A program made the translations under genes and the position numbers. This document shows, piece after piece, positions 5,445 to 63,948 of a stretch of 64,000 bases of DNA (position 1 is the stretch's first letter; each line of letters opens with the position of its first letter). Origin of the DNA: Antedon mediterranea (Eukaryota; Echinodermata; Crinoidea; Comatulida; Antedonidae); NCBI RefSeq assembly GCF_964355755.1, contig NC_092676.1, positions 25,650,288 through 25,714,287 of the forward strand, read 5' to 3'. The notes beneath the pieces are model-generated. The model saw only the letters and a program-made list of their open reading frames with translations. It was not told where the DNA came from and did not search any database.

Positions 5445-5654
5445 AAGCTCTGTCTACACTATCAAACTAGTTTGAAAAAAAAAAAGTTTGATGTGCCCAA
5501 ATATGATAGTGATATACCCAAATATGATAGTGATATGCCCAAATATGATAGTGATATGCCCAAATATGATAGTGATATGCCCAAATCATCATGTCCATTT
5601 ATGGGCACATCATATTTTGTTGTCACATAAAGTTTGATAGTGTAGACAGAGCTT
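5445..5654. mobile_element. MITE-A copy with expanded internal repeat
   Basis: Full-length copy, AAGCTCTGTCTACACTATCA to GATAGTGTAGACAGAGCTT. It is longer than usual because the internal 21-bp unit CCCAAATATGATAGTGATAT is repeated in tandem about four times between 5505 and 5585. The small open frame there is only this repeat translated. Confidence 0.92.
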
Positions 5655-11172: not shown

Positions 11173-14100
11173 ATGGATGCTCAAAGTAAGACATCTCAAG
11201 TTCCGTTATAATATTAGCTTATAAACTACCGATGTTTGGTTAAGTATAACTCAAGGATAGTCTATATCTTGATTGAAAGGCTAGGCCTAGGCTAGCCCAT
11301 CTCATTATGTATGATGAACGTGGTGGTTGACACTGAGACGACCACAGCAATGTTTGGAGTAGGCTCGTGTGCATGTTTTCTGTTTTGTGATATAGGCTAG
11401 GCCTAGCCTAGTCCTACCATATCTATACGACTTTCAATCTTATTCTAAAGATAGAGCATAAATGAGACTAGGCCTAATGAAAAGTAAAAAGTATAGGCCT
11501 TTGAAATTGAAATAAATTAAAGAATAGATTAAAAAAATAAAATCAACGTGAGTATGTCATGGACCATGGCAAAAAAGTCCATGGTCCATGGAGTGCTGCT
11601 ACTGTACATTTTACTCTCTTTTTATTGAGTACATGTGTTAGGCCAGCTGAACTCGCCATCATCATCATCTTAATTCGCCATTGCCAGCACTTGTCCAAGT
11701 ATTAATAAGATCTTAACCCAATTTAAAATAGCAGAAGAAGTTTTATCGTAACCAACATAAAACGTGACAGATTTCAATCATTTTGAATCTATATAATAAT
11801 TATATCATGGTAAAATATTGCATAAATATTTATTGATCTGTTTTTAGGTGGTTACCATAGCAGCAGTCATCCTGGAATAGAACCAATGACTCTTGGTTCT
11901 CCAATTTCAAGTGGTAGTCAACATTCCAATACCGCCTACCTCCCAGGATTCCTAATGGGAGATCCCACACCCACAGCATCTGTAAGTATTGTGTGGCACA
12001 ACGAACGTACCCACAGTTAGTCTTGACTAATAGTTGTGATGCATAGAAACAAAGGAAGGGTCATAAAAGCTATTTAGGTTGTTAATCGACTCATTACCAT
12101 CATGCAAGTATATACTGACGTAGTATGTAAAATTCAACTCAACATTTTGTACTTAAACATTTTGTACCCACTGTTAATAAAGCAAGTTTTCTGACCAAAA
12201 ACATCTACATCATCAGTAAAATGTATTAAACTTATTAAACTGTTCATTTTTTTTCAGCCATCGGCTAATCGGCTGTGGTCAACTAGTCCATCAAAAGCTC
12301 TCACGCCATCAACACTTGGACCAAGGGACAGTACACCAAGATTTGATAGATCAGAAAGCAGAAACATTACAAGGTAAAAAATGATTAAGAAATGCTAAGA
12401 AGTGATTAAGGAGCTTGCCTTTAATAATCCCTCAGAAATTAAACCTCTGATTGAAACGTTTCAACAAAAATAATAAAATGCTATCAGTCATATGTAATAT
12501 GTAAGCATATCACTACCATATTTGGGTATATCACTACCATATTTGTGCATATCACTACCATATTTGTGCATATCACTACCATATTTGGGTATATCACTAC
12601 CATATTTGTGCATATCACTACCATATTTGGGTATATCACACTAATCTATTATAATTATTAATTGCTCTTTTTCCAGGGGTTCAATTACCCATACCCCTAA
12701 AGATAAATCTGGAGCGCCACCAGTGGCCGGTCTCTTTGACAACGTCAATGCGATGAGAGGAAGTCCAGCAGTCCACACATCCTATGCCGCATCACCTGAC
12801 AGACGACAGGTAAACATTTTATTCAAAATATTGTAAAATTTGCAAAATTAATTTACATAACACATGTAATTATAAACTGGTATTTAAATTGGAAGTATAA
12901 AGAGTGTTGTATCAAATTGTGCAATTTATCATTTTGTACAATATTTTCTTCTAGATGGATTCCAAGGGCCATATCCCACCGCCTTTATCCGCATCTTTTT
13001 CAAGAACTCCATTATATAGCTCAGTTGGTAAGCATGCATAGGTCCATGATTCTTATATTAATCTATAAATAGTATTTCATGATTTTATAGCAAAGAATAT
13101 CCCTAGTCTCAGGGTATTCAAATATACACTTTCTTGATAGGTACGCCAAGTCAGGTGCAATCCCCAGGAACTGGCAGTTTCTTCAGCCATCAAACACCCA
13201 CCCCAGCATCACCAGCTCAAATTGATCCATTTTATACACAAGGGTGAGTAGTACGCAATGACCATGTTTTTTTGTAAGAAGTCTACTACAAAGTCAAGTA
13301 GACCACACACAGTCTATGCAATAGTAAATCTTGATGAAATTTTGTTATAATTTATTTTTGTTGTTGTAGAGAATCAATATCTTTAGGAGATCAACTGAAT
13401 GATACATGGGTAACTGTGTTCGGGTAAGTCAATATTAAATACATTGAAAGAAAGAATTTTTAAAAGCCCTGCCAGATTTTCACAGTCAACAGCACAGCTC
13501 TCTTACATCAGTCATTCATTCATTCATTTGTCAAGCTAGTTTAAAAAAACACAAAAATGTTAGCATACTGTAAATAGTTCATGCTTTTTATTGTTTATAT
13601 ATATATATATATATTTATATATATACCGGGCGGTTTAGAATTAATGTTCTTTGCCTATTGTGTTTATATATATATATTTATATATATACACATCAGGCAA
13701 TGAACATTAATTCTAAACCGCCCGGTGATATACTGAAATTTAATTAATTAATTTGAATATGTTTATTGTATTGTATTGTAATTGTTGTTCTGTAATTTTT
13801 AATGCAAGCAATGGAATTTCCAGAAATGGATGAGAATAAAATTTGAATCTTGAATCTTAATAAATAACAATAAGCAATAATATAAAATTGAGTTTCTTCT
13901 CGTTTTTTGTGTTCATATCTTATTATGCTAATTACTTACTTATTTACATACACATGTCCTATTGGTATATAAGCACTCTAGGCGTTGTTTACTGTTCTGA
14001 TGATGAGAATAGTTTCTCGAAACATGTCACATTTACATTTTAAGGCAATTTGCCTTTTTATTAAATGCCTCGTTATAGTCATCCTAACTCGCAAGTTTGG

Positions 14101-15599: not shown

Positions 15600-15748
15600 A
15601 AGCTCTGACTACACTATCAAACTTTATGTGACAACAAAATGTGATGTGACCATATGTGGACATGATGACATCATATAACTACCATATTTGGGCATGTCAC
15701 TACCATATTTGGGAACATCACACTAGTTTGATAGTGTAGACAGAGCTT
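15600..15748. mobile_element. MITE-A copy in the NUP35 3' flank
   Basis: Complete copy (AAGCTCTGACTACACTATCA to TTTGATAGTGTAGACAGAGC) flanked on both sides by TA. Confidence 0.92.
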
Positions 15749-26000: not shown

Positions 26001-29000
26001 GACAATACTGTGGGTATCATCAGTGGCTGGATCTCAATGGAGATACAAAAAAAAAGAGAGAACAGCTAAATCAAAACGATAAGTAAAACAGCCAGAAAAG
26101 TTAGCAGAGCATTCGGGCAACACTAGCCCTTCATCAGTGCAAGTATATATATATAATATATAAGGCTTTACCATGTTGAAACACCGGTTCTCGTCAGATC
26201 ACCGAAGTTAAGCGTCGTTGGGCCTGGTTAGAGCTTGGATGGGAGACCATCTGGGAATATCGGGTGCTGTATATGGAGCTGGGGTCCCGTTAGGCATTTG
26301 AAATCAGCATTGCTGACTCTTATGACAGCCCCTACATCTAGTATCTGCCTTTCCTCTGGTGAAGGTGGGCACTGGACGAGCGAAGCCCTTGATCAATGTT
26401 AGGACCAATCAAGGTGCTTTAAACAATCCTGGCTTTGTTTGTATCAAACCTGTTTTTTGGCGGTAATTATCGCTGTTGGCTTCGATTGAATAAAATAAAA
26501 ATAAATAAAATATAAACAATAAAAAGCAAAACTATTTACAGTAAATTACATTGCTTCAATTTGTTTACTTACAAAGTATAATTTCTTCACTTTTTTTCTT
26601 TTCTTTCAATAGTGCCTGAGTTCTGCACTGTTCTCTCTGGAAAAAATCTACCCACGACGGAATCTTGGTGCTGAGCAATGGAGGGCGCAAGAAATGCTGA
26701 GTATCATCACAAAACCTGCAGTAATGCTTAACCCAGCTCAAAGTGATACAGTAAGTAAAATTAAAGTGATGTGCCCATATATGGAAATGATGATGTCATA
26801 TCACTACCATATTTGGGAACATCACACTTTTTTTGTCAAACTAGTTTGATAGTGTAGACAGAGCTTTAGGCAAGATGCTTTACTCTCTTTGCCTAGTAAT
26901 TAAGTTGAGCTATACAGTGCTGCTAAAGAATAGAAGTCCTTAGGGGGAATGATCTTTGTAAGATTTACTCTGCTGCAGTTACTGCAGCAAGCATTACAGT
27001 ATTGTGTGCTATTCATTGACTGTTTGTTTTACTATATTATTTGAAGTACTGTAGTTCTTAAACTGACATTTTCTTTGCATCAGGAAGAACCGCGTCTTGT
27101 GGCCAATAGAAATAGTACAACGTCCATAGATTTCTATGGTTATTATAATAGACAGGTGGGCTGATTTACATAAATTTGCATAAAGCTGAATGACCTGCAT
27201 TGGCATGGTTATATTATGGGTAATATGATATACATGTGGACTGATTTGCATAAAAAGCTGAAAATCCTATATTTGGCATAGTTGCATTATGGGTAGTATT
27301 TTATTACAAGTGGACTGATTTGCATAAAGCAGAAACCCCTATATTTGGCATAGTTGCATTGTGGGTATTTTATTACAGGTAGACTGATTTGCATATCCAA
27401 AAGTTGAATGACCTGCATTTTGCCTGATTACTTAATTCAAAATTGCATGTTTTTATTTTTATTCATTAACAGAAATGTTTGCCATAAACTCATAAGCAAG
27501 GAAGCATGTTGAGAGTATTTTTGATAAACAGTAGAACTCCTACCTTCAGGACCCTACAAAGTGGTCCCCTTAAAGGGTGTCCCCTTAAAAGGAGGTCTCC
27601 TAAATAGGGGGGGGGGGGTCTAAAAAAGGAGTTCTATTGTATATTGATTTGACACTTTAAATATTATGAATATATTTTAAACTTTAAAATAATAATTATT
27701 AGAATAATAATTTACATCCTGCAACATTTTTGTTTTTTAAATAGATTAGGCATTATGATATTTTTCATGTTATGAAATTATCATTCGACTTTACTATATA
27801 CATGGGCATTATGACCAGAATGAGTTATAAACAGATATGGAGATACAATTACTATATATGGGCATTATGACATACCTTAATAACCAAAATATGGAGATAC
27901 AATTACTATATGTGGGCATTATGACATACCTTAATAACCAAATATGGAGATACAATTACTATATGGGCATTATGACATACCTTAATAACCAAATATGGAG
28001 ATACAATTACTATATATGGGCATTATGACATACCTTAATAACCAAATATGGAGATACAATTACTATATATGGGCATTAAATATGGAGATACAATTACTAT
28101 ATGTGGGCATTATGACATATGTTATGACCAAATATGGAGATACAATTACTATATGTGGGCATTTTTACATCTATAACCAAATATGGAGATACAATACTAT
28201 GGGCATTATGATATAAAGTCATGAATATGTATGATTTTTAACTGTTGATCTGTGGATAGTTTCAGAACTTTCTCCAGACAAATGGAAAGTAATTGGCACT
28301 TAAACATATTTTACAGGACTGTCTTATGTAATGATGATATCAATCGTATAATATTATTCAAAATATATGAACTATATTTGTACCTAATTATAATATAATG
28401 GTTGTTTTAATAGATGCGTTGTGAATACTTTTCCTTAGATGCAATGGAGCGTTGGATTATTTGTAAGTTGATTTCTATACATTTCAAAATATACAAATTC
28501 ACAATTCATTTATTCATGGTCAAACACTGTAAAATATAGTACATAGTTTGAAATTATTTTCATTAGAAGTTAAAAATTCACATAAAAATACAAAAATGAG
28601 TTAAAAAGTTGTGATAAAATACAGGTAAAACACATCTTTTAAAATACAGATAAAATACATCATTTAAAATACAAAATATACAGTAATCAAGATTGGTGTG
28701 TGTAAGTGTATAGCTGGCATAAAATGGTTAGGGGTTAGGGTTAGGGTTAGGGGTTGGGGTTAGTGTTAGGGTTAGGGTTTCCATGTTTCATTGAATTGCC
28801 TCATTTAATTCCATAAATAAACTCACACAAATGATCAAACCGTACTGTACAAATTACCATTTATAGAATTCAATTCAATTTATTTTCATAACATACATCA
28901 TTGTGAAATAATATTACAGTGTTTTTTGTGAAAATTAGAATGCACTTATGTTTGAGAAACATAAAGAAGCCCAGAATTCTATGCTATCATGTAGAATTGA

Positions 29001-32000
29001 AATTGTCTTGTCTTTATTATTATAGTGGGTTTTATGGTGTGCCCTAACTTACTGAATCAACCTAGAGCTGTCCATCTGTGGAAGCCAGCTCTGCAAGGTG
29101 GTTATTGTATCACCTTGTTTCGTGACGAAATCCTTACATTTCACAAATACATTGAAGTCTTCTTTGATTCTATCAAGGGGTAAGTACATCATCATTTTTA
29201 TTCTCGGAGAATAGCATCTCAAGCGTGGTTCCCACTAGAATGTAACGCAGTGATGTCTCGAGGCAAAGTGATGTATTGCGTAATCACAAGTGGGAAACAT
29301 CGTTTGATGCAACGCAAGTCAAAAGGACACTGGAAAACAGTATCCGGGGTGAACCAGGTCAAAGTCTACCTGCAAGTAACATTGACGCGCAACAAGCAGG
29401 TTAGATTTCACGCAGGCGGCAGCAAACAAAATTATTGGAAGGGCATTTTCTTACGTTGTGTCAGTTGCATGCTATAGTGAGAACCACGCTTCAATGATTT
29501 TAATACATCATCTTACCTTTACTATATATGGAAGTCCAAATTTGGAGATGCCATTACTATATATGGGTATTATGATGCTTGATACTTGATATTTACAGCA
29601 TGGATATAATGCCATTACTATGGGTTTTTTCAGGTATAACAAGAAAGCGGCCGAAGTCAAAGAATGCAGTATACATGCTTTGCAGAATGCGTAAGTTTCT
29701 TTATACAAACACTAGCACAAAAATAAACAAAAAAATTCACATGTACCATCTGAAATGTATGTCATTTCTAGTTGTTCAAACCAGCTTTTTTAAAATTACA
29801 GTACATCTTGGTACATATATACTTTATGTTCTTTTCTACCTTTCAATTTCAGGCCGGAAGTGCATCGCGAACGACGCAAATACTTGAGGATGGCGTTAAG
29901 AGAGTTGGTGACCATTCTTAGTGACCAGCCTGGACTCCTTGGTCCTAAGGTAAAAATATTCAGTATACCATACCGGTAGATTATATATATAAGAACAACC
30001 AATCTAAAATCGGCCAGAAAATTCTGAAATAATTAAAATTACAAATATTACATTTTTGTCCTTAGGCATTGTATGTCTTTATGGCCTTGTCATTCACAAA
30101 GGATGAAATATTGTGGCTTGTCAGACACTCTGAATACAGACCACCTAGGTCAAAGGTCAAGATTAACACTGACGATCTAGTAGATGAAAATCTTCCGGAG
30201 CTTTTATTCCTAGTGGAGGAATTACGCAGTAAGTATCAACAGATTATGGCAAATAATGTTACAGAAAAAAATAAAAATCACAAATTCTTAACTGTCAACT
30301 TGCCCAACTTTGGACTAGCGATTTTAATAATTTCAGAATAAAAAAAACATTTGTTTATTTATATTTCAGGTCTTGTTAAAAAATACAACCAGGTATTTCA
30401 ACGTTATTATCTTCAGTACTTGAGAGGGTATGACGCCATTGTGCTGAACAACATTGTCAAGGTAAAATTATTGCATTTTTTTTTTTTGTGTTGTCTTGTT
30501 ACAAATCTTTTTTGTATGTGCATTTTGTGTTTATATATATATATATAAACAGCACAGGCACAGAATAAATTCTAAACCTCCCAGTGATATATTGAAATTT
30601 AATTAATTAATTTGAAACGATAAAGATCAGGAAATCTGTGAGAATGAGAAAAAATAACCCCAACCGAGATTCGAACCCAGAACCTTCTTCTTGATATGCA
30701 GATGTCTTAACCATTAGACCACTGGAGTTTTCATGGTATTGTTTAAACTCAAATGGATAGCGACTCTTTAACACTCTCGGCACGTTACGGCAGAACAGCA
30801 CTAGTCCCCACAGATCAAATTGATACACCCTCATCTTATAATTATATATTAAATTGTTTTTGTATTTTTTAGAGTCTAACTGTATGTCCTGAAGATGAGT
30901 CTGTTATCTTAACATCATTTGTCAACACAATGGAAAGTCTTAGTGTGAAACAGAGTAAGTACTCGCCCACTTTACATTGCTAGCATCAATCTGTACACAT
31001 TAAACACCGTAATAATTAAGTGTTACAGATTGTGTTGAGCATCAAGTTACTTAAACATACCCATTATTAGACTTGGTTCTCATTAGAGAGGCAAGGCGAG
31101 TGACCAATGACAAGCGACCGTTTGAATAATCCATCGATTGTGATTGGTCAAATCACCTGCATTGTGTTACGTCCTTGCATTGCCTCTCTAGTGGGATCAA
31201 TTTGTGACGACCGACGACCAAAGTATGTCATGTTAATTCAGTGTGAGTATGCCAAAGTACTGTATTGTGATGTGTTTCCTCCTTCCCCAACTTGTCATTG
31301 TTTAGATGGTCTCTATAGTAAGTCTAGGTGACGACCAATGATACATCGATTGACCTGACCTAGCAAGGTAGTCGCAAATCAAAAGCGTGTAAATTGCTCA
31401 TCTTAATTTAGCATGATCTTTTGTATCTCGTAGTTGAAGAGGGAGAAATCTTTGATTTCCGTGGATTCCGACTGGATTGGTTCCGTCTGCAAGCCTACAC
31501 CAGCGTCAGTAAGGCAACGCTGATGTTGACTGACAACCAGGATCTTGGTAGAACAATGAATTCCATTGTCTTTCATACCATGATGGTGGATCATCTGGAT
31601 GAACTTCTTCTGGAGACTTCTGATCTCAGCGTCTTCTGGTGAGTTCAGTTTATCATATTTTGCATTCAAGGCAAAGAAGAAAGCTCTGGCTACAATATCA
31701 AACTTAATGTGACAAAAAATGTGATGTGCCCATATGGACATGATGACATCATATATCACTACCATATTTGGGCATATCACTACCATAATTGGGCATATCA
31801 CTACCATATTTGGACACATTACACTATAGTGTAGACAGAGTTTTACTGTTTTTATTTTTCAATGAATTTTCTTATAAAGTTTGTTATATAATTACAGTTA
31901 AAATCAAAGACTTATTTTTTTCAGTCACTTTGGCCGATTCTTTGAGAAGTCATTTGAACAAGGCCTTAAGGATTTCTCCCAGATACGCTACACCATTGCA

Positions 32001-41606: not shown

Positions 41607-42189
41607 GGTTATCAGACGATCGGGACCACGGACGATCGGGCCCAGACGATCGGGACCACGGACGATCGGGCCCAGACGATCGGGCCCACTTCAAGACGAT
41701 CGGGCCCAAATCGTGAGACGGTGAAAGACGATCGGGCCCAACAAACAAGACAATCGGGCCAAAAACATTCTCGGAAAATTAAAAAAAATAAATATGCGAA
41801 TACAGACACAATAATAACAATCAAAATCAATCACATTTATTCATAAATCGAGAGTATTGGTAAGAAATTCTTAAAACCAGTTGTGTTAATAGGGGAAAAT
41901 TATGATAAATCAGAAAAAATCTAATTTATAACCTTTTTAATTAAAATCTTAATTACGCAAGAAAAGCACGTTGGCACTAAGTAAGCACTAGGAATGAAAA
42001 ATGATGAAATGTGGCACATTATTTTATATAACACAAAAGACTATCGGGACCAACTGGTAAGACGATTGGGCCCAACGTGGTTCTAAAAACACTGAACGAT
42101 CGGGCCCAACTGGTATGACGATCGGGACCACATTTTCTGGGCCCGATCGTCTTGGGCCCAATCGTCCGTGGTCCCGATCGTCTGTTCCC
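41607..42189. mobile_element. 583-bp foldback/Mutator-like TIR element with 9-bp target duplication
   Basis: Long terminal inverted repeats: CAGACGATCGGGACCACGGA... at 41613 matches the inverse of ...CGTCCGTGGTCCCGATCGTCTG ending at 42184, with one mismatch in about 31 bp. The left arm is extended by tandem copies of GACGATCGGGCCCA (41613-41760), more at 42045-42135. The 9-mer CGTTGGGCT flanks both sides (41598-41606 and 42190-42198). A 9-bp duplication with long, internally repetitive TIRs is the signature of MULE/foldback elements. The middle is AT-rich and non-coding, so it is non-autonomous. Confidence 0.8.
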
Positions 42190-42507: not shown

Positions 42508-46987
<4,480 letters not shown>

Positions 46988-47589: not shown

Positions 47590-47950
47590 GTCTCTATGAC
47601 TGATAAAGATCTGCAAGAAAAAAATGACAAATATTATTAGGTAAGGCTTATGGAAGGAAATACAATTTGACTGGAATATATTAACAAAAAGAAATTTAAT
47701 TTTAGTAGTTATCAATATTGTTTCGATATTGTCGTGTTTCTATGTCAAATTTTGGATGCTAAAATTCTCATAGATAATGATTTTGTTGCATATACAAAAA
47801 TGTAAATTTTAATGATTTTATTTATATTTTAGTTTATAGTTTATTTATTATGGTCCGTGTTTTATTGCAACTTTATATCGTAGCCTATTGGCATTTTGCT
47901 ATTTTTTAGTTGTGGACGTATCGTATAAAAATATTTATACAATTTTATAT

Positions 47951-48790
47951 ACAGTAGAATTCCTTTTAAGGGGAAACATTTGGGATCCAAATGTCGCCTT
48001 AATAGGGGAGTCCCATGAATAGGGTATTTTGCCCGTTCGTTTCACCGGAAAGTGTCCCTTTAATATAAGTGCACCCTGAATAGGTGTTGGCTGTAGTGTT
48101 AAACATATATTTCCCCTTGTTCATTTCACAGAAAAGTGTCTCCTGAATAGGAGTGTCTCCTGAATAGGAGTGTCTCCTGAATAGGAGTGTCTCCTGAATA
48201 GGTGTGTCTCCTGAATAGGAGTGTCTCCTGAATAGGTGTGTCTCCTGAATAGGAGTGTCTCCTGAATAGGTGTGTCTCCTGAATAGGAGTGTCTCCTGAA
48301 TAGGTGTGTCTCCTGAATAGGAGTGTCTCCTGAATAGGAGTGTCTCCTGAATAGGAGTATCTCCTGAATAGGAGTGTCTCCTGAATAGGAGTATCTCCTG
48401 AATAGGAGTGTCTCCTGAATAGGTGTGTCTCCTGAATAGGTGTGTCTCCTGAATAGGAGTGTCTCCTGAATAGGAGTGTCTCCTGAATAGGAGTGTCTCC
48501 TGAATAGGTGTGTCTCCTGAATAGGAGTGTCTCCTGAATAGGAGTGTCTCCTGAATAGGAGTATCTCCTGAATAGGAGTATCTCCTGAATAGGAGTATCT
48601 CCTGAATAGGAGTGTCTCCTGCATAGGAGTGTCTCCTGAATAGGTGTGTCTCCTGAATAGGTGTGTCTCCTGAATAGGAGTGTCTCCTGAATAGGAGTGT
48701 CTCCTGAATAGGTGTGTCTCCTAAATAGGAGTGTTCCCTGAATAAGGATGTACTGTCCCCTGAATAGGGGTGTCTGAAAGAAGGGGTAAA
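47951..48790. repeat. 17-bp minisatellite in an AGTAGAACTCC-family element
   Basis: Starts with the family end ACAGTAGAATTCC at 47951. Bases 48130-48745 are about 36 tandem copies of CTCCTGAATAGGAGTGT with variants ...GGTGTGT and ...GGAGTAT. Each unit contains the near-palindrome CTCCTGAATAGGAG, able to form a short hairpin. The 167-codon minus-strand open frame across it exists because 3 x 17 = 51 preserves frame; it is not a gene. No right TIR is evident. Confidence 0.93.
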
Positions 48791-48841
48791 AGAAGATTAA
48801 TTTTTAAATGGAGAGTGAACATGAGTTAGTTGCCAAGATGT

Positions 48842-53131: not shown

Positions 53132-56100
53132 ATTACAAGACCATGATGATGAGTTTGAAGTTTTGGATATAGAAAGAGATGCATCCAACAGTTACGATGA
53201 TGACGGACCATTCCATTCTCTAGACATAGAGATCGCTCGTAATTACACTTATGGAACAACTCCGCCTCTCAATCAACGAGAACTGAAACGTGCTGGCAGA
53301 AAAGAAAAAGCAAAAGTCATTTATGGCGGGTATTCAAAACCGAACAAGTTCAAAGGACAGAATAATTCTTTTAATGAATGTGATTTCCCACCTGTAACAC
53401 GTAAAAACTCGCAGGAGGGTTGCGGAGGCGATGCGAAGGAGATGTACAATAGAAAGAAGATAAATATGATGAAGGAACGAGACCAACAACGGGAGGAGAA
53501 GATCTCAATCAGAGATAATAAAAGTTGTATTGTACAGGAACCGATGAAAACGTTGTCAAGTTACTCAAGTAATCGTTTCAAGAGTTTAACATACCAACAA
53601 GTTAGTCTTCCTCTTTCACCGAATAATGCCTCGAAGAAACGACCAACATCAACTGGAAGTCAAATAAGTGAATGTTCAGAAGACCGCCTTACCTTCCATA
53701 AAACGTTTTCGTTACTTATCAAAATGGGAGCAAGTAATTCGAAAAAGGAAAAAAGTACAGATATCAGCAGTAAGCTGAGTGTGCAGAGACAGAACAGTCA
53801 ACAACTGGAGTTCTGGCAGGCTGAGCTGTCGGAGTTGTTATGGTTGGAACTGCAAGCGTGGCATAACTGTGTAGACATGGAACAACAAGATGTATTATTA
53901 TACCAAGCTCGTTTAAAAGCAAAGGAAGTTGTCGATAGAATATTGAAATTTAGATTCGAGCCAATAATATCCGGGATACAGCGGAGCAAATCACTGCAGA
54001 CGACTCGTCGTTTATTTAGTTCTGATGGCAACGATGATTCTGCTCTTGGAGACGAAGACGATGACATGTCTCACATTCCACATAGTCTTTCAGATTCCAA
54101 TATTGACAGAGGCAGAGAAGGGAGCATATTTTCAGATACCTCGGATTCGGCTCCCATGTTACGAAGATGTTCGCTTGCGTTCGGCTTTGAAGTAACAGCA
54201 ATGATGAAAATGATGCAATTAGCTCACCGACAAATCCATCCTCTATTGCGAGATTTTGAGAATGTACAAAAATTGTTCATATCTTCGAGAGCTCTAGAGG
54301 GCGGTATATCAGACTTTACCAACCCATCGTTTACCCGACAGATTAACACTTTGAATTTATGGATTAACATTACTGTCGATATTTCACATAAATTGAAATT
54401 GCTAGGCCATCATCTTGATGTTTATGGCACGGGTAACTGGCCTGGGATGGCATACAACGCACAATACTCAATTAACGGCAATTCGGATATCGTTAAACCG
54501 TATGCGAAAAAAAGTCGTCGGAGTCTGGCGAGTGTTCGAGAAGACTCTGCCGATCATCAAGATCTGGAGATAGAAGATGATGTTCTGTCATCTACTGATG
54601 ACACACCCGAAAACACACCAGTTGCCCTCTCTGATGACACACCTAGCAGCACCCCGGTCAATACCCCTAAGTCGGAAAAATCACCAATTACGCGCATTTT
54701 CAGTTCATGTCATTTTAGTTTTGATGAGGAGGGTACAGCGTATATGTATAGACCTTACGTGGACAGCGGTCTGAAGCATAACGGTTTGGAAAAAACAATG
54801 ATTGCGCTGCAGTCCATCATAGGTCCAACTTTAACACGAGCAAAAATGGCGCTTGAAAAACCATCACAATTCGATATCGTCACTGATTCCTCAAAGGTAA
54901 GTTGAACGAGAAATACAAAGTTGATCATGGGCTAGAAGTGGGAGTCTACATCTGTCTGTATGCTGTATTTCCATATGAATGCAGTAGCAACTACTTAACA
55001 ATATACAGCACTACTGTAGACTATCCACATTGATCTTAACCAATCTTACAGTAGAACTCCCTTTTTTTAAACACCCCTATTAAGGAAACAGTTTAACATG
55101 AAACAAACAAGAGGAAATATGTTTTAATACTACAGCCAACCCCTATTCAGGGAACTCTTTCAAATGAAATGAACAAGGGGAAACCCCTATTTAGGAGAGA
55201 CCTCTATTGAGGGGACTCTTTTTAACCCCTATTCAGGGGACCTCTTTTGAGGGGACTCTCAACTCCTATTCAGGGGACCTCTTTTGAGGGGACTCTCAAC
55301 TCCTATATCAGGGAATACTACTATCAGTATTACTCTTTTTTTGGGTCCCAAAGATTATAATGTAATACAGGAAGTTCTGTCTGAGGCTGAGTATACTTTT
55401 TAATGATGGTTAAATTTATATTTAACTTCCTTGCAGGTTGAGGAATATCCTAGCCACCCTTGTCTGGATACCTGCTCAGCTAGTCTCAATGATCCAAAGA
55501 CTTCTTGCTTTATTAAACATGGCTGTCACAGCCAAGAATTTCAAGAAATGAATCTACCATCATTCAGGTATAGTTTATTGATGAACACATTCAGAAGTGA
55601 GTCTAGAGTGGTATCAAGGTGGTTTAAATGATATATGGGTATTTCCAATGTTATAATGACAACTACACTGTATCAAGTCATTACCCATCATCCACCTGTA
55701 CTTCTTATAATGACAACTACACTGTATTAACTTATAATTACTCATCAGCCACCTGTACTTTGACATAAAACACCCTTCCTCCCTCATAAATAGACAATGA
55801 ACCCATTCTCCTTTGACTATATTCACATTTTCTCCGATGTTTTGTTCGTTAGGAATGCTTATCTGTTTCTGCTTCGTGTTCTGTTGGATGTCATGCATGA
55901 AAGCTTACAGTTCCGCCTTGCACAAAAACCAGCTGCAGTTGCAGAACCTTCTATCCACAGTATAAATCAGGTAAATATTGTATTTTGTGTCTTAAGCTCT
56001 ATCTACGCTATCAAATTTTATGTGACAAAAAATGTGATCTACCCATATGGATAAATATAATGTTTATAATGTAATCAATAATATAATAATGTCTACAGTC

Positions 56101-59100
56101 TACATCCAATAAATCCCAAAACATAATCCACATGTATTTTAAGAGGCACTATATGTCAACAAATAATTATTAGTCCTCTCTCCATGACGGTTGTCACATA
56201 ATGCTTTGTATTATTTTGTTTTTGTATTTATATGTTTCATATGGACAGTTTGTCTGAAATAAAGTTGAATTGAATTGACAATTTTTATCTGGCATTCAAA
56301 GAAACCGTCAACCAAGCAGCTATGCTTCATCTAGTAGAATGGATAACTTCCAAAAGCACACCTGAGAAAATTCAGGGGTCACCTTTCCTACAACATAGAC
56401 GATATATAAGTATATTAGGAATTGCCGCGGGATATCGGGCAGTCAATTCTGTTAGCACTGGCTATAAACATGTAGCTATAGGTAGGTAGATAGTTCCATG
56501 CTATGTGTATGATTGTGATTGTGTGGTTCTTGTTTCTCAGCTAATACACGAGTGTAAAGAGGTGATTCGATGGGCGGTCTGGGTCAAAGGTTACTACCAT
56601 AGAATGGTGCAAGCCGTTGCCTGTGGCAGTCTGGATGCTGACACAGACATTGAAGAGTATGAAGAAAACTTAAAGAATATGCTTGAGGTACTTTGGATAT
56701 CTTTGTATATTTTATAATAATAATAATAATAAGATTTATACAGCGCACATATCCACTAAAGTGCTCAAGGCGCTTGTGAAAATCATGAAACATATTAACC
56801 TTAACCTAAATACAACTGATAATTTTGACAAAAAACCAAATTAAAAACAAGACCAATCGAACCCACCTCACTGCTTCCGTTTACCAGCAATTTAAGGTGC
56901 ATAGACCAGCCAGTACATAACTGAGTGAGTGAGTGGCCGAGCGGTTAAGACAGTGGAACCGTAAGAGTGAGTGAGTGGCCGAGCGGTTAAGACAGTGGAA
57001 CCGTAATTACGTAGCCATAACATCGGCAGGCGTTCGAGGCTCACTCACTCCATGGTTCTGGTGGTAGAACGAGTCTTCTCGGATAAGGACTATAAACCGT
57101 AGATCCAGTGTACACATCTAACTCGTGTGCACTTTAAAGAACCTAGTACATCTTTCGAGACGAGTAGGGGGTTACCCCGGTGTATTAGTACATCACAGCC
57201 ACTGATCACCAACTGGGCCCTCTGGGAGACCAGTCTTTGACTGAAGAGGTTACCCAGTATAAATATATAAATTTCATAAAAAAATTTCAACTCACAGGTG
57301 TTCTCAGTGATGTGGGTATCTAGCTAAATAAATTAAATCTTACAAATTTTCATCTTTTAATATTTTCATCTTTGCATATTTTCGTCTTTAAAATGAATTA
57401 ATGTTTAGCTACTGGCCTTTTGTGATTTAGATGCAAGGGCAATTCTGATGATAAGATGATGATTGTAATACAGTATTACACAGTTATCAGCAGCTAAGTG
57501 ATAAGAACAATTCTCAGCAACCGTATCATGTGGACACTCCTCATGGTGAATCACTTTTTGACCATAAGATGACATTGGAGTTCACTCTCTAGTAAATTAT
57601 ATAACCTCTTTGTTATAGGTGTATTTTGAATATCTCCATATATGGATGTCTATGCTTCAACGATCACCTCGTGCTTCAGCGAGTTTGAAGAACATTTTAG
57701 AAGAGGAGTGGGCTTTCTCAAAAGAATTCTGCCCTCATATCAGAAGTGGAGAATCCGAGGCTGGGAAAAGATTTTGGTAAGAAGTTGTACTTAACTTGTA
57801 ATAGATTTTTAGATCTTTTTAGAGTTTAAAATCAATATAAATTATAAGTAACTCATTAGCAATGCATGACTGAACAAAGACTGTATATTGAGAACTTTTT
57901 TCTACTCAAAAGAAGACTTTATTTAAAAGCCATGCCTAACACTATCAAACTTTATGTGACAAAATGTGATGTGCCCATAATGCTGATGTCATATCACTAC
58001 CATATTTGGGCACATCACACTTTTTTTGTCAAACTAATTTGATAGTGTACACTGAGCTTAAAGCTATGACAACACTATAAATCTTAATGTTACAACGAAA
58101 TATGATGTGCCCATATATAGAGATGATGTTGTCATATCACTACCATATTTGGGTATATCACACTTTATTTGAGCACATCAAACTAATTTGATAGTGTAGA
58201 CAGAGCTTAACAATAGCAATAAGTGAACTAGTCAACATTTGTTATTATATAGCATTATGGCAAAGAGTCTTCTGGCTTCTACAAGTGAATACCTTGAGGG
58301 CGACACTGATGAAATATGCTCTGGACTTCAAGACAGCACATTGGATCTTAAAAATATTATGTAAGTTGCAATTTAATGACTTTATATAAGTCATATCACA
58401 AGCTTTAAGGAGTACAAATACTGTATACATAGCGACATGGCTACATCTATGTTAACTATGTATTTGTAAGTCCAGTGTACACATCTGGTTCATGTGCACT
58501 TTAATGAACCTAGTACGTCATTTAAAATGAGTAGGCGGTTACCCCGGTATACTAGTTCACACACAGCCACTTTCACAAACTCAACATAGTACTACACTGG
58601 CACTCTTTGACTGAAGAAGCTACCCATTATAAAGAATAACTGAATAATTTATAGTTTGAACGTAAAATGGATTTATTTTAGTTGCTTTAGTGTATTTTCG
58701 CCTAAAGTTGAGTACATAAACACCCTTCTTGATCTTTGTTTTTACCTTCTCAGAAAGAGCACAAGAGATTATTGTAGAAGAATAAAACAGCTATTTTATG
58801 AAGCAAGGGAGAGAACCTCAAGAGCGCTGAGTTTTGCTAAAATGTTGCGAAAAGTAAGACTTATTTATTATTATGATTTTTGTAGTCATGTACTGAATAA
58901 ATGACTGTTTAATTTTAGAATTTTGTAATCTGTATGTCATCAGCTTGCAGAGAAAGATTATAGGTAACTTTATTTTAAAGTGTGATGTGCCCAAATATGA
59001 TAATGATATGCCCAAATATGGTAGTGATATGCCCAAATATGGTAGTGATATGACATTATCATGTCCATATATTGGGTGCATCACATTTTTTTGTCACATA

Positions 59101-62100
59101 AAATGTGATAGTGTAAACGGAGCATCATGATTTGTTTTGTTGACCTCTTTGCAGGATTTGGAAATTGCAGCTGAGTTTCATTTATCAGTTTCAACGGGCA
59201 GACTGCTTCAAGATTTAGAGAATTCAAAACATGTTAGGGTAAGTATTATTATTATATTATTATAATTTGATTTTTCTAAAAATATATTATTCCTGAAATA
59301 ATAAAGTCACCATGTTAATAGAAATATAGTATGTATAAGTAAAGCTCTGTCTACACTTTTAAACTAGTTTGACAAATAAAGCGTGATTTGTCCAAATATG
59401 GTAGTGATATGCTCAAATATGGTAGTGATATGACATCATCCTGTCCATACACCGGTGTACTAGTACATCATAGCCACTGATCATAACTGGACCCTTTGGA
59501 AGACCAGTCTTTTGACTTAAGAGGTCGCCCAGTATAAATAAATAACAAGAAACAAACAATATATGGCACATTACATCTTTTTTTGTCAAACTAGTTTGAT
59601 AGTGTAGACAGAGTTTAAAACTCTTTTATGCCAAATAAAATTTACAATAAAATATTTAATATGACTTTATTATTTAAAAAAATAACCATATTGGTATTTT
59701 CTTGATAGATTAAACTAGACAGTCCTGGTCACATGTTGTTTGTGCCGGAACATATCAAAGAGAATATCCAACAGATTCGTCAGCTACTGAGCGACCTCTG
59801 CGGTCGTGACGACTTCATCCAGTCAAGTCCATCCAGCGAGGAAGGCTATCTGTTATTGGTCAAATCTGAAGAAGTTGACATTTGGCGTGGAGATTGTGTG
59901 GATGTTCCCCTAAATGTTGAGAGAACTATAGCACTGGTCGATATACAGGTAATTTGGATTTCTGTACAGATTCAGTGTCTATACATTTTTTGTGACTTTT
60001 AGATTGAATTGATTGATTGATCACTTTATTTCAGAATAAAAATTCCATATATACAACAAACAATACAAAATGGAAAATCACACTAAAATGTTCTCCCATT
60101 TAGTGAAGAGATTTGAAGATCATAGTACACCTAACAAGATCATTTACACTTTGTAAAGTGCTTATTTTGCATTTTAAAAACTAGTCTATGGACAAGACCA
60201 AGAATGTTCAATGGTTTAAATGAATGAATGACTTTTTTCTTATATTTGTGTTTTCTAAAATTTAGGTTGAAAATCTTTTACTGGTTGTTAACCATTCGTC
60301 TCAACTGTCAAGCCAACGCAAAGCTTTTGAGAAAGCTGTGGGTAGTGATGTTGCTCTAGTCATTGAAACTACCTCAAGTCATAACACAATATCAGATGCC
60401 TTGTCAGAACTTAAGGTGAAAATCCTACTTAAGTATTACAGTCCGCTTCATAATCACATTATCTCTAAAGCTCTGTCTGCACTTTCAAACTAGTTTGATA
60501 AATAAAGTGTGATGTGCCCAAATATGTTGGTGATATGCCCAAAAATGGTAGTGATATGACATCATCCTGTCCATTTATAGGCACATCACATTTTTTGTCA
60601 CATAAAGTTTGATAGTGTAGATAGAGCTTAATAGACATTTTCAAATTATAATACCTGAATAGTAATTTCTATGTAATTTTGTAAAAGTACTTTAATACAA
60701 ATATTATCTATTTTGACAGACAAATGCCTTGAAGCATGGTGAAACGTTAACTGCATGTATTTATAAGATACGTGAGAATCTTGACATTGACCGCATCCAT
60801 GATATTGACCCTAACGACACGTCTAGACTCTGCAAGTATTTCAAAGAAACTATGCATAGATGCTTTGCCGTTGGATTTGAGGTAATTATAAATTATTACT
60901 GAGAATAGATTAAAGAGATTATGTTACATTAAGCAAGGCAATCTAACAACAGGATGCTGAACTCTGAAGATCAAAGAGTTTATCTGTGGCTGTGACACGC
61001 TCAGTTTCACACCCCTTAACAGACACAGAGTAGTGCGAGGAATCTGTATAATACAGTAATGTTGGTATTTGTCACAGCCAGACATAAGATCAAAGGACTT
61101 TTACGAGTTCATATCTTGGTAAGGCAAGCTCAGTGTCCTGCTGTTTACTGCTTGCATTAAGCAAGCAGTAAAATAAAACATTAAGATCTGTCTACACTAC
61201 ACGAAAAAATGTGATATATGGGCATGATGATGTCATATCACTACCATATTTTGGCACATCACACTTTTTTTGTCAAACTAGTTTGATAGTGTAGACAGAG
61301 CTTTAGATACAACAAAATAAAATGTTGAGTAAAACCATTCCCTTTACTTTCATTTCTCAAAAAAATGTTATTATGATTTTATTTTTAAATTTGTAGTATC
61401 ATAAAGAAGTGGCACGACTTCTGTCCGGTGAATTGCGTCAACGGCTAGGCAAATCATCTCTCACGTTTGCTACAACTTGGATGAAATTTGTTGTAGATAA
61501 ATGTGAAAAAGGCAAAGGAAGAAAACCTAGGTATCTATATATAAATTTACGTAAGGGCAAAATTCGGTGAATCACGCGTTATTTCTAGAATGTTTACTCG
61601 ATGGTATATAAAGTTGGTTCGTACTTTCGGTACTGATTTTAACCGCCAGATGTAACCCTGTTTACTAATTAAATTGAGTTTGATAATTAGTTATTGACGA
61701 TTAAAACGAATTTAGGTTCAACGATTTGCCCCAAATAGGGGTGTTTTTCGATCGCGGTATACACTGTCTAATGGATGTCCGTCTTGAAAAATACCCGCAG
61801 ACGATAATACGAGGATGCTTCGCATTTTTCTATCTCCTCCTACGATAATTGTTTTTAATGGCTGAAAACCGGTTGAACAGCTCGAGTACAGCATCATAAT
61901 GTTGAAGACAGGCCGATTAAAAAAAAAAAATACTAATTTGATAGATTTAATATACGTTTATACAAATAAATGTATTGATTTGCGATGAATGGAACATTCC
62001 AATCTCTGTTCCACAAGTGTCTATTCCCTCAGGCGTCGTAAAGGCAAGTACTGTATACTCATAACAGAAATTCGATCCATTTTTTTTTCAACCAACCCAA

Positions 62101-63948
62101 CCATTTCAATCTGTGCTGCAGAGGTTGGATATACATTTTTTTTAACAGATAATGAGCTAGCGCTTTCACTCGCCGTATATTATGTACACATCTTTATTAT
62201 TGCAGTTAAACCACCCACATCACCACCCTTCCCTCGCTGGCATGAGTAGCGTTGTAAAACCAGTAGAGGATGGGCCTTTACGGTACATCACATGCCCTAA
62301 CTAAACGCAGAACAACTTTGGAGGGTAGGGTAGGAACCAACTTAAGTATGAATTGGCTCTAAGAAACAATTGAAAACCATTATGCCTACTAATTAAGTTG
62401 AGTTAGATAATTTAATATTTATTGACCATTAAATCGAATTTATGATTTTGCCCCGAATAGAGGTGGTTTTCACAAATTGTTTTAAATTATATAAACATAC
62501 ACGTCGTAGTGATGTATCGTTACATGTACTATACTATTTCAATCGACGGTGATAGTTTCAACAAGTATTAAATCGCAATGTTTTACTGTGTATAGTGGTA
62601 TATTATTTGTAAAACATGAAAACAATTAATATTTCGTTACTAAATGGATAAAGAATATATTTAAAAATTGTTCTTCTTTGCACCCATCCTCTTCCCCATC
62701 CCTCAACCCTAATGTTACATACAAAACACAAATTAAGTTTGTTTAAATTTGACTTAAACAATGTGTCTCATTTTGTGACAAGTTTCTCTTTCGGATGTAT
62801 ATTTCCAGGGTGCTAATGTTAGTTGAGTACATAAATCACAGTGTCTATTTATTCGTTCCTGTAAACGACATGTATTATTGTTGTACATTTGAAATCGCCA
62901 GTTCTTTAACGCTGAAATTATTATGTATTCGAGAACCATCTGTGGGCACGACCTAGATGGTACGCGAGCGAAGCGAGCGTACCATCTAGTTGTATTAATT
63001 TGTTGTATTGAAATAAATCATCATCAGGTAAAATAAGGATGGGATAAAGGTTATAAACAAGGAACTTCAAACTAATTTTAGAAACTTATTATTGGCTGAC
63101 ATTCAGGTTTCCTGTTATGATGATGATGATGTTATGATCATCTTTTGAATGGATTGATAAAATCAAAACAACATATATATAATAAAAAACATGTCTACAC
63201 TATCAAACTTTATTCCGCAACAAAAATATGTGATGTGCCTATATATGGACATGATGATGTCATATCACTACCATATTTGGGCATATCACTACCATATTTG
63301 GGAACATCACACTTTTTTTGTCACATAAAGTTTGATAGTGTTGACAGAGCTTATGAAGTTGCAAAATTTAATTAATTAAATTTCTTATTCAAAATCAGTA
63401 CAGAAAAGCACACCTGAAAAAAAAATAGCTACAATTTATCTAATTCTCTTTATTTATGAACACAATTCAAAGAAAGTTCTCACACCTTGCCCTAAACAGG
63501 AAGGTAAAACATTCAGGCAGGAAGCAATACCAACGCTCCTTCCTGCTCCCAGAATACAATTACTCTAGCACTACTACAACTATTTGTAAAATTCTGTGTT
63601 CCATGTTGTTGGTGTGTCTCTCTGTATCTTAATTTTTGGTATGTTTCTCAGCATCTCATATTTCTACTATGTCTCTTCGTGAACTTTTCAACACTTATTT
63701 TTGTACATTAACGTTGATTTTACAGTACTTTTACAAATTACAGTACTTGTGTATTAATGCACATGTTGTCTGATGGTACTGTAGTTACAACATGGACCTA
63801 TAAATTAGATAGGTCCATGGTTACAACAATAACTGTAACATTATTTTGTGATTTCTTTCTGTGTAGATGGGCTCAGCATGGCTTAGATTTTCTTATCATT
63901 GCCTGTGATCCAAAGAACATAGCTCATCTAGAGGATGGTGAATTTCAG
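53132..63948 (+). CDS. MAP3K4: MAP3K4 (MEKK4) N-terminal regulatory region, 13 exons, continues off the right edge
   Basis: MAP kinase kinase kinase that activates MKK3/6 and MKK4/7 in stress signalling; in vertebrates its N-terminal half is autoinhibitory and binds GADD45. Exons: 53132-54896, 55437-55567, 55853-55970, 56541-56687, 57619-57776, 58253-58360, 58754-58853, 59155-59238, 59709-59948, 60266-60415, 60720-60881, 61397-61530, 63867-63948; 3379 nt in window, phases consistent. Matching motifs: YGTTPPLNQRELKR (human YGTSPPSTPRQMKR), DRLTFHKTFSLLIKM, ELLWLELQAWHN, NLWINIT, MNLPSF, VLLDVMHESLQFRLAQKPA, ELFHEARER-like QLFYEARERTSRALSFAKML, DLEIAAEF, GFEYHKEVARLLSGE, RWAQHGLDFL. The first exon is not certain (see 52550-52593). 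The serine-rich acidic linker in the big exon (residues with SSTDDTPENTPVALS) is longer than in human. The kinase domain is not in this window. Confidence 0.95.
55048..55325. repeat. AGTAGAACTCC-family element with CTATTCAGGGGACT units, MAP3K4 intron
   Basis: Starts ACAGTAGAACTCCC. Contains several 25-35-bp units with CCTATTCAGGGGACCTCTTT and TGAGGGGACTCT. No clear right TIR. Confidence 0.7.
55625..55775. repeat. Two-copy local repeat
   Basis: TATAATGACAACTACACTGTATCAA ... TTACCCATCATCCACCTGTA (shown in parts) is repeated after about 60 bp as TATAATGACAACTACACTGT ... TTACTCATCAGCCACCTGTA. Confidence 0.7.
55994..56052. mobile_element. MITE-A left-end fragment
   Basis: AAGCTCTATCTACGCTATCA to CTACCCATATGGATA; the remainder is absent. 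Confidence 0.78.
56274..56489 (+). other. Unexplained 71-codon open frame in a MAP3K4 intron
   Basis: Frame without an early ATG reading AFKETVNQAAMLHLVEWITS and SPFLQHRRYISILGIAAGYR, then AVNSVSTGYKHVAIGR and TAG. Composition is protein-like and GC is higher than around it. It cannot be an in-phase MAP3K4 cassette (flanking exons are phase 0 and no suitable acceptor is seen). It may be a transposon ORF fragment; family not recognised. Confidence 0.3.
56715..56790. repeat. (AAT)n microsatellite with SINE/LINE tail
   Basis: AATAATAATAATAATAAGAT followed by TTTATACAGCGCACATATCC and AAAGTGCTCAAGGCGCTT, a tail type common in marine invertebrate retroposons. Confidence 0.5.
56923..57268 (+). mobile_element. 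tRNA-derived SINE with duplicated head
   Basis: GAGTGAGTGGCCGAGCGGTT AAGACAGTGGAACCGTAA occurs twice in tandem (56923-56963 and 56964-57005). A single body then continues through GGCGTTCGAGGCTCACTCAC to GGTTACCCAGTATAAATATA. Fullest copy in the window (346 bp). Confidence 0.85.
57927..58059. mobile_element. MITE-A copy
   Basis: Diverged left end (CCTAACACTATCAAACTTTA), right end GATAGTGTACACTGAGCTT. Confidence 0.85.
58061..58208. mobile_element. MITE-A copy abutting the previous one
   Basis: Starts AAGCTATGACAACACTATAA one base after the preceding copy ends and finishes GATAGTGTAGACAGAGCTT. The two form a head-to-tail pair at one site. Confidence 0.87.
58470..58632 (+). mobile_element. tRNA-SINE, 5'-truncated
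   Basis: CCAGTGTACACATCTGGTTC, TGTGCACTTTAATGAACCTA, GGCGGTTACCCCGGTATACT and CTTTGACTGAAGAAGCTACC match the SINE body at 57100-57260. Confidence 0.75.
58979..59124. mobile_element. MITE-A copy, left TIR lost
   Basis: AAGTGTGATGTGCCCAAATA, three internal units, GATAGTGTAAACGGAGC at the right. Confidence 0.85.
59342..59616. mobile_element. MITE-A copy split by a SINE fragment
   Basis: Left end AAGCTCTGTCTACACTTTTA; right end GATAGTGTAGACAGAGTTT. Interrupted at 59449-59546. Confidence 0.88.
59449..59546 (+). mobile_element. tRNA-SINE 3' fragment inside MITE-A
   Basis: CCGGTGTACTAGTACATCAT, GCCACTGATCATAACTGGAC and GAGGTCGCCCAGTATAAATA correspond to the last 100 bp of the SINE. Confidence 0.78.
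60468..60629. mobile_element. MITE-A copy
   Basis: AAGCTCTGTCTGCACTTTCA to GATAGTGTAGATAGAGCTT. Confidence 0.9.
61183..61303. mobile_element. MITE-A copy
   Basis: Short copy with diverged left end (AAGATCTGTCTACACTACAC); right end intact, followed by TA. Confidence 0.87.
62957..62989. other. GC-rich hairpin in a MAP3K4 intron
   Basis: AGATGGTACGC and GCGTACCATCT are perfect inverted arms around a loop made of the repeated word GAGCGAAGCGA. Confidence 0.8.
63189..63352. mobile_element. MITE-A copy
   Basis: Left end slightly truncated (CATGTCTACACTATCAAACT), right end GATAGTGTTGACAGAGCTT, two internal CATATCACTACCATATTTGG units. Confidence 0.9.

Follow-up and report, generated by a model that had tools for sequence, protein, structure and literature searches.

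Minisatellites grown from the subterminal boxes of a pogo-related MITE family in Antedon mediterranea: probable local expansion at many loci

Where do the minisatellites of this locus come from? The window, that is, the whole 64,000-nt stretch of Antedon mediterranea DNA analysed here, contains four sites that the initial annotation had assigned to one TIR family, and re-reading their positions, ends and arrays confirmed all four as genuine members. Two of them, starting at 44447 and 55047, are inverted copies, which had been overlooked. The short copy at 27527..27641 (plus strand; 115 bp including the flanking dinucleotides) retains both TIRs and contains three copies of a 17-bp word, hereafter the box, followed directly by the right TIR; it looks like a box-to-box internal deletion. 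The inverted copy at 44447..44963 (minus strand) harbours a box array adjoining its consensus-right end (44471..44601, minus strand; TRF period 18, 7 units) as well as a nested repeat (44786-44945) with the ends AAGCTTGATTCCCACTA and TAGTGGGAACCAAGCTT. All sites had been described as beginning with ACAGTAGAACTCC; while the family assignment stands, this copy opens with GTAGTAGAACCTC and closes at 44950-44963 with a perfect reverse TACAGTAGAACTCC. The copy at 47950..48797 (plus strand; right edge approximate, judged against the consensus) has a left TIR with one mismatch (ACAGTAGAATTCC) and a decayed right TIR (GGGGTAAAAGAAG in place of GGGGTTCTACTG). It encloses the minisatellite AGTGTCTCCTGAATAGG at 48135..48775 (plus strand; 37.4 x 17 bp, 93% match), which derives from the right subterminal box of this copy. 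Both this array and that of the 44447 copy were correctly reported as present, but it had escaped notice that they occupy the same position in the element, inside its right end. The inverted copy at 55047..55350 (minus strand; right edge approximate) has lost its far TIR and carries, in the left box pair, a 37-bp array with two boxes per unit (55182-55313; 3.4 units). Elsewhere in the window, a perfect 42-bp duplication (56923-57006) contains GTGGCCGAGCGGTTAAG, a word resembling the 5′ portion of a tRNA gene, and at 41613-42183 there is a cluster of short arrays whose GACGATCGGGCC-like units run in both directions.

Alignment of 15 copies yielded a consensus of 174 bp, including TA at both ends, that starts with CAGTAGAACCTC. 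The box (GTGTCCCCTTAATAGGG) occurs in it four times, at positions 46, 63 and 131 on the plus strand and 28 on the minus strand: one inverted box lies within the left TIR, two stand in tandem, and the fourth, 85 bp from the first of the tandem pair, falls within the right TIR. At an offset of 85 the consensus repeats 27 bp perfectly, and at offsets of 68 and 17 it repeats 16 bp each. As had been proposed initially, all array cores are variants of one near-palindromic word. That this word arises at each locus, in contrast, is refuted by the consensus, in which the box is already present four times; the arrays match the box, their units derive from the element, and what they expand are existing copies. 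The picture of one element giving rise to a different array at each locus thus holds insofar as there is one family whose arrays differ, but not in the sense of a word made anew locally.

In the 354-Mb genome, exact TACAGTAGAACTCC is found 144 times and its reversed control 7 times. The 17-bp dimer pattern has 611 matches (0 in the control) and a 24-bp interior probe allowing up to three mismatches has 993 (1 in the control), so the family matches are not due to chance. Recognisable copies number from hundreds to about a thousand; this census combines pattern counts with sampled loci and stretches of the genome, and its repeat counts are lower bounds. TA precedes exact CAGTAGAACCTC in 412 of 542 cases (76%)—a count pooling every family with this end word—compared to about 11% predicted from base composition and 1 of 17 in the reversed control. 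The best-scoring full-length copies are mostly only 79–90% identical to the draft query, which makes the family look old, and it is probably no longer mobile. The element codes for nothing and is best explained as a non-autonomous DNA transposon (MITE) related to pogo/Tigger elements. A literature search with its end word returned results that concerned no transposons.

What connects this MITE to pogo/Tigger? A Pfam DDE_1 search led to L031 (G000:C3), which measures 2,756 bp between TA dinucleotides, has perfect CAGTAGAACCTCC inverted ends and contains a 550-codon open frame, which gives 539 aa when read from the first methionine. The encoded protein matches DDE_1 (1.9e-46) and HTH_Tnp_Tc5 (1.6e-17), and human CENP-B, represented by its DNA-binding domain (1HLV, 1.7e-12), is its sole PDB match at E 0.001; judged by sequence, L031 is an intact transposon with a predicted transposase of the pogo/Tigger type. 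The 12 bases of CAGTAGAACCTC at the left end of the MITE consensus are identical at both L031 ends. The left end of L031 also follows the order of the MITE: CAGTAGAACCTC comes first, then an inverted box, the word CGGGACC at an offset that differs by one base from that in the MITE, and finally two direct boxes; this layout was compared by eye, automatic alignment having left the words unaligned. Similar ends, along with boxes arranged in inverted and direct orientation, are also a feature of the plant pogo-type MITEs Emigrant/MathE. The L031 box, ATTTTACGTAC, is another word than that of the MITE, and its right-end repeats follow at 15–16-bp steps. A shared end word combined with a family-specific box is the pattern expected of a family-specific transposase-binding site, and the 17-bp box was probably the landing site of the MITE's own transposase.

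A transposon carrying the MITE's box was not found in 50 loci cut with 1.5-kb flanks, 30 of which came from the 47 DDE_1 matches and 20 from the 28 HTH_Tnp_Tc5 matches, and a general TIR search over the same loci recovered L031 only; the autonomous partner may be extinct. Because no matched partner was found there, pogo membership rests on the TIR, the TSD and the layout common to the MITE and L031. The pogo/Tigger superfamily (PMC7386202) shares its TA target and short TIR with both, and its DDE_1 plus HTH_Tnp_Tc5 transposase with L031; unlike pogo/Tigger transposons, the MITE is non-coding and has its own box, for which those loci held no partner. The two-box form of the L031 right end occurs at 152 places in the genome, at least 15 of them roughly 300–500 bp from an opposite-strand CAGTAGAACCTC, as expected for MITEs of L031's own. 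These L031-box ends (GATTTTACGTTCCCTNGATTTTACGTACGC), about 150 in number, form a very uniform set and probably represent a more recent MITE family that L031 mobilised.

The arrays fall into two main classes, one with a period of 17 bp made from neighbouring boxes and one with a period of 68–88 bp, once 104 bp, comprising interior plus boxes. The second class was read from 16 tandem duplications at separate places, taken from the listed matches of the interior probe and from multiple consensus hits, and 15 of the 16 periods differ by no more than 5 bp from 68, 85 or 102; the accompanying p-value, computed against an arbitrary uniform null, serves as orientation only. The array periods follow the box spacing (17, 68, 85), and repeat lengths are predictable from the original element. 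Unit numbers range from 2 to about 157 across loci; the longest array (L101 with L130, about 157 units) has kept both element ends. Flanks were read at 15 17-bp array loci (L101-L105, L111-L120), and in every case one or both ends showed element sequence; the observations that the initial annotation had named as evidence against its view, arrays outside a TIR element or TIR elements never associated with arrays, did not occur in this sample. Most copies sampled by their TIRs are without an array: a long box array was present in or beside the element at 2 of 30 such loci. With the 24-bp interior probe, which involves no selection for the box, duplications were seen in about 6 of the 81 loci in the listed part. 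Array frequency is uncertain, as loci were sampled either for their box pattern or as the best hits of the consensus. At L009 (1501-2600), an array with a period of 55 bp and about 20 units (98% match), each consisting of one direct and one inverted box, starts right after a perfect end word. At L126 and L127 (G000:C2:11566950-11568300), one and the same stretch (CTGTAAACTTAGAAAATAATTT...) borders the array left and right, indicating that a larger surrounding segment has been duplicated.

Were these arrays born separately, and when did they grow? Among the 16 17-bp arrays, 12 different unit consensuses were counted, which makes most births look separate; as the arrays also lie inside elements, growth appears to have been local and repeated. 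Identity within arrays is 0.77–0.94, compared to a between-array mean of 0.755. Five units of L106 are 99% alike and the units of L107 96% alike, while in both cases similarity to the family consensus is 81%. This contrast points either to growth long after insertion or to later homogenisation of the array.

Our best explanation, to which we assign a probability of roughly 0.78, is a pogo-related MITE whose pre-existing boxes were expanded in place at many loci independently. The boxes would be binding sites for the CENP-B-like DNA-binding domain of the transposase. Expansion would have followed insertion, with the direct boxes already present serving as substrates for replication slippage or unequal exchange and without the transposase, and short copies such as that at 27527 may be the reciprocal deletions. 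Slippage or unequal exchange, the standard account of minisatellites born from transposable elements (PMC6947457), would explain the array periods as well as why growth came late and births were separate. Measured against this, the interpretation given in the initial annotation was about half right. The window also holds a second, unrelated MITE with the ends CTGTCTACACTATCAAACTT and 21-bp direct units (CATATCACTACCATATTTGGG), mostly one to four, whose number varies among about 20 clusters in the 64 kb (2366-2490, 5448-5650, 15603-15744, 31685-31815, 59347-59612, 60473-60625, 63188-63348 and others); a six-unit array lies at 12503-12631 without recognisable TIRs. The similar behaviour of this element suggests that the tendency is not specific to one family and favours ordinary slippage or unequal exchange.

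Alternatively, the palindromic word might stall replication, with the hairpin itself causing array birth. Hairpins of 5 bp are formed both by the ancestral box and by the 17-bp unit of the window, and units of the ancestral type and of the window array fold strongly relative to shuffles (z -3.8 and -5.4); to these, the hairpin-forming interior claimed at the outset does apply. It does not extend to the units of L101, L102/L103 and L105, which fold poorly (z -1.4, -0.6 and +0.6). Such long arrays with a broken palindrome (L101, L102, L103, L105) speak against hairpin-driven growth, and since the longest array (L101) lacks the palindrome, hairpins are not required. We therefore consider them an unlikely cause, although they may help at the first step, with the box still intact, without sustaining growth. 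Conservation of the palindrome as a general array feature was ruled out, all five hairpin pairs being kept in 4 of the 16 array consensuses.

Slightly less likely still is active growth, wherein binding and nicking of the tandem boxes by a transposase of the pogo type, or by a domesticated CENP-B-like protein, triggers local re-replication or unequal exchange. The products are box arrays, the protein of the relative L031 matches only CENP-B in the PDB, and such a role has been suggested for CENP-B in the case of alpha satellite (PMC4585704) as well as for the CENP-B-box-like motif of nematode satellites (PMC3694981). However, growth in old copies looks recent while the 50 loci contained no transposase with this box, the unrelated MITE of the window varies in unit number in a similar way, the two-box ends of the L031-type family seldom grow (of about 100 listed places, two have three boxes), and the box is no closer to the CENP-B box than shuffled units are. 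Nothing observed requires a CENP-B-like transposase to drive growth. The more general proposition, that satellites would be born repeatedly at pogo-type transposase-binding sites with a bound CENP-B-like protein promoting box amplification, seems to us improbable. By far the weakest is a single birth followed by dispersal through transposition of array-bearing copies, which we judge very improbable: dispersal of minisatellites by repeat-bearing elements is documented (review PMC6947457), but it fits poorly with 12 distinct unit consensuses in 16 arrays, with their differing periods and element positions, and with the many TIR-sampled copies that have no array.

Is in-place expansion of MITE boxes a new mode of minisatellite birth? 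The initial suggestion that it was possibly undescribed went too far, as minisatellites born from MITEs and other transposable elements have been reviewed (PMC6947457, PMC12628747). CENP-B box and alpha satellite resemble the present case in that a 17-bp word forms a tandem array, and a pogo-related DNA-binding domain is encoded in this genome (L031); unlike alpha satellite, the sampled MITE arrays are short and dispersed. Reading the box as a CENP-B box was rejected, since about 40% of shuffled units attain the similarity of 9/17, which is chance level. Tandem-repeat MITEs and MITE-born satellites are known with Xstir and miDNA4 in Xenopus and DTC84/pearl in bivalves (PMC12628747, PMC5139131). 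Like our MITE, these are short TIR elements with variable internal arrays seeded by direct repeats; they belong to another family, whereas here the spacing between subterminal boxes accounts for two period classes, and arrays were born at many loci where they still lie within their elements. The foldback elements Galileo and Tetris likewise have tandem repeats within their ends: Galileo end repeats hold extra transposase-binding sites, and Tetris repeats seeded a satellite (PMC4079207). Their TIRs are long, however, the Tetris unit measures about 220 bp and the Galileo transposase has a THAP domain, as opposed to 17-bp boxes in a 174-bp element. BrickBuilt (PMC4596501), a minisatellite also enclosed by MITE ends, differs in being bacterial, with a 23-bp minisatellite, 19 copies in one strain and no known link to pogo.

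Compared to these systems, the kind of event is already known, and here the repeat lengths are predictable from the element. What the A. mediterranea family offers are independent array births from one known seed, still enclosed by the element that supplied it. As both the starting state (two boxes spaced by 17 bp and a 27-bp repeat at a distance of 85 bp) and the outcome (periods of 17 or ~85) are visible, models of minisatellite birth, including those in which CENP-B-like proteins provoke satellite rearrangement, become testable on many replicates within a single genome.
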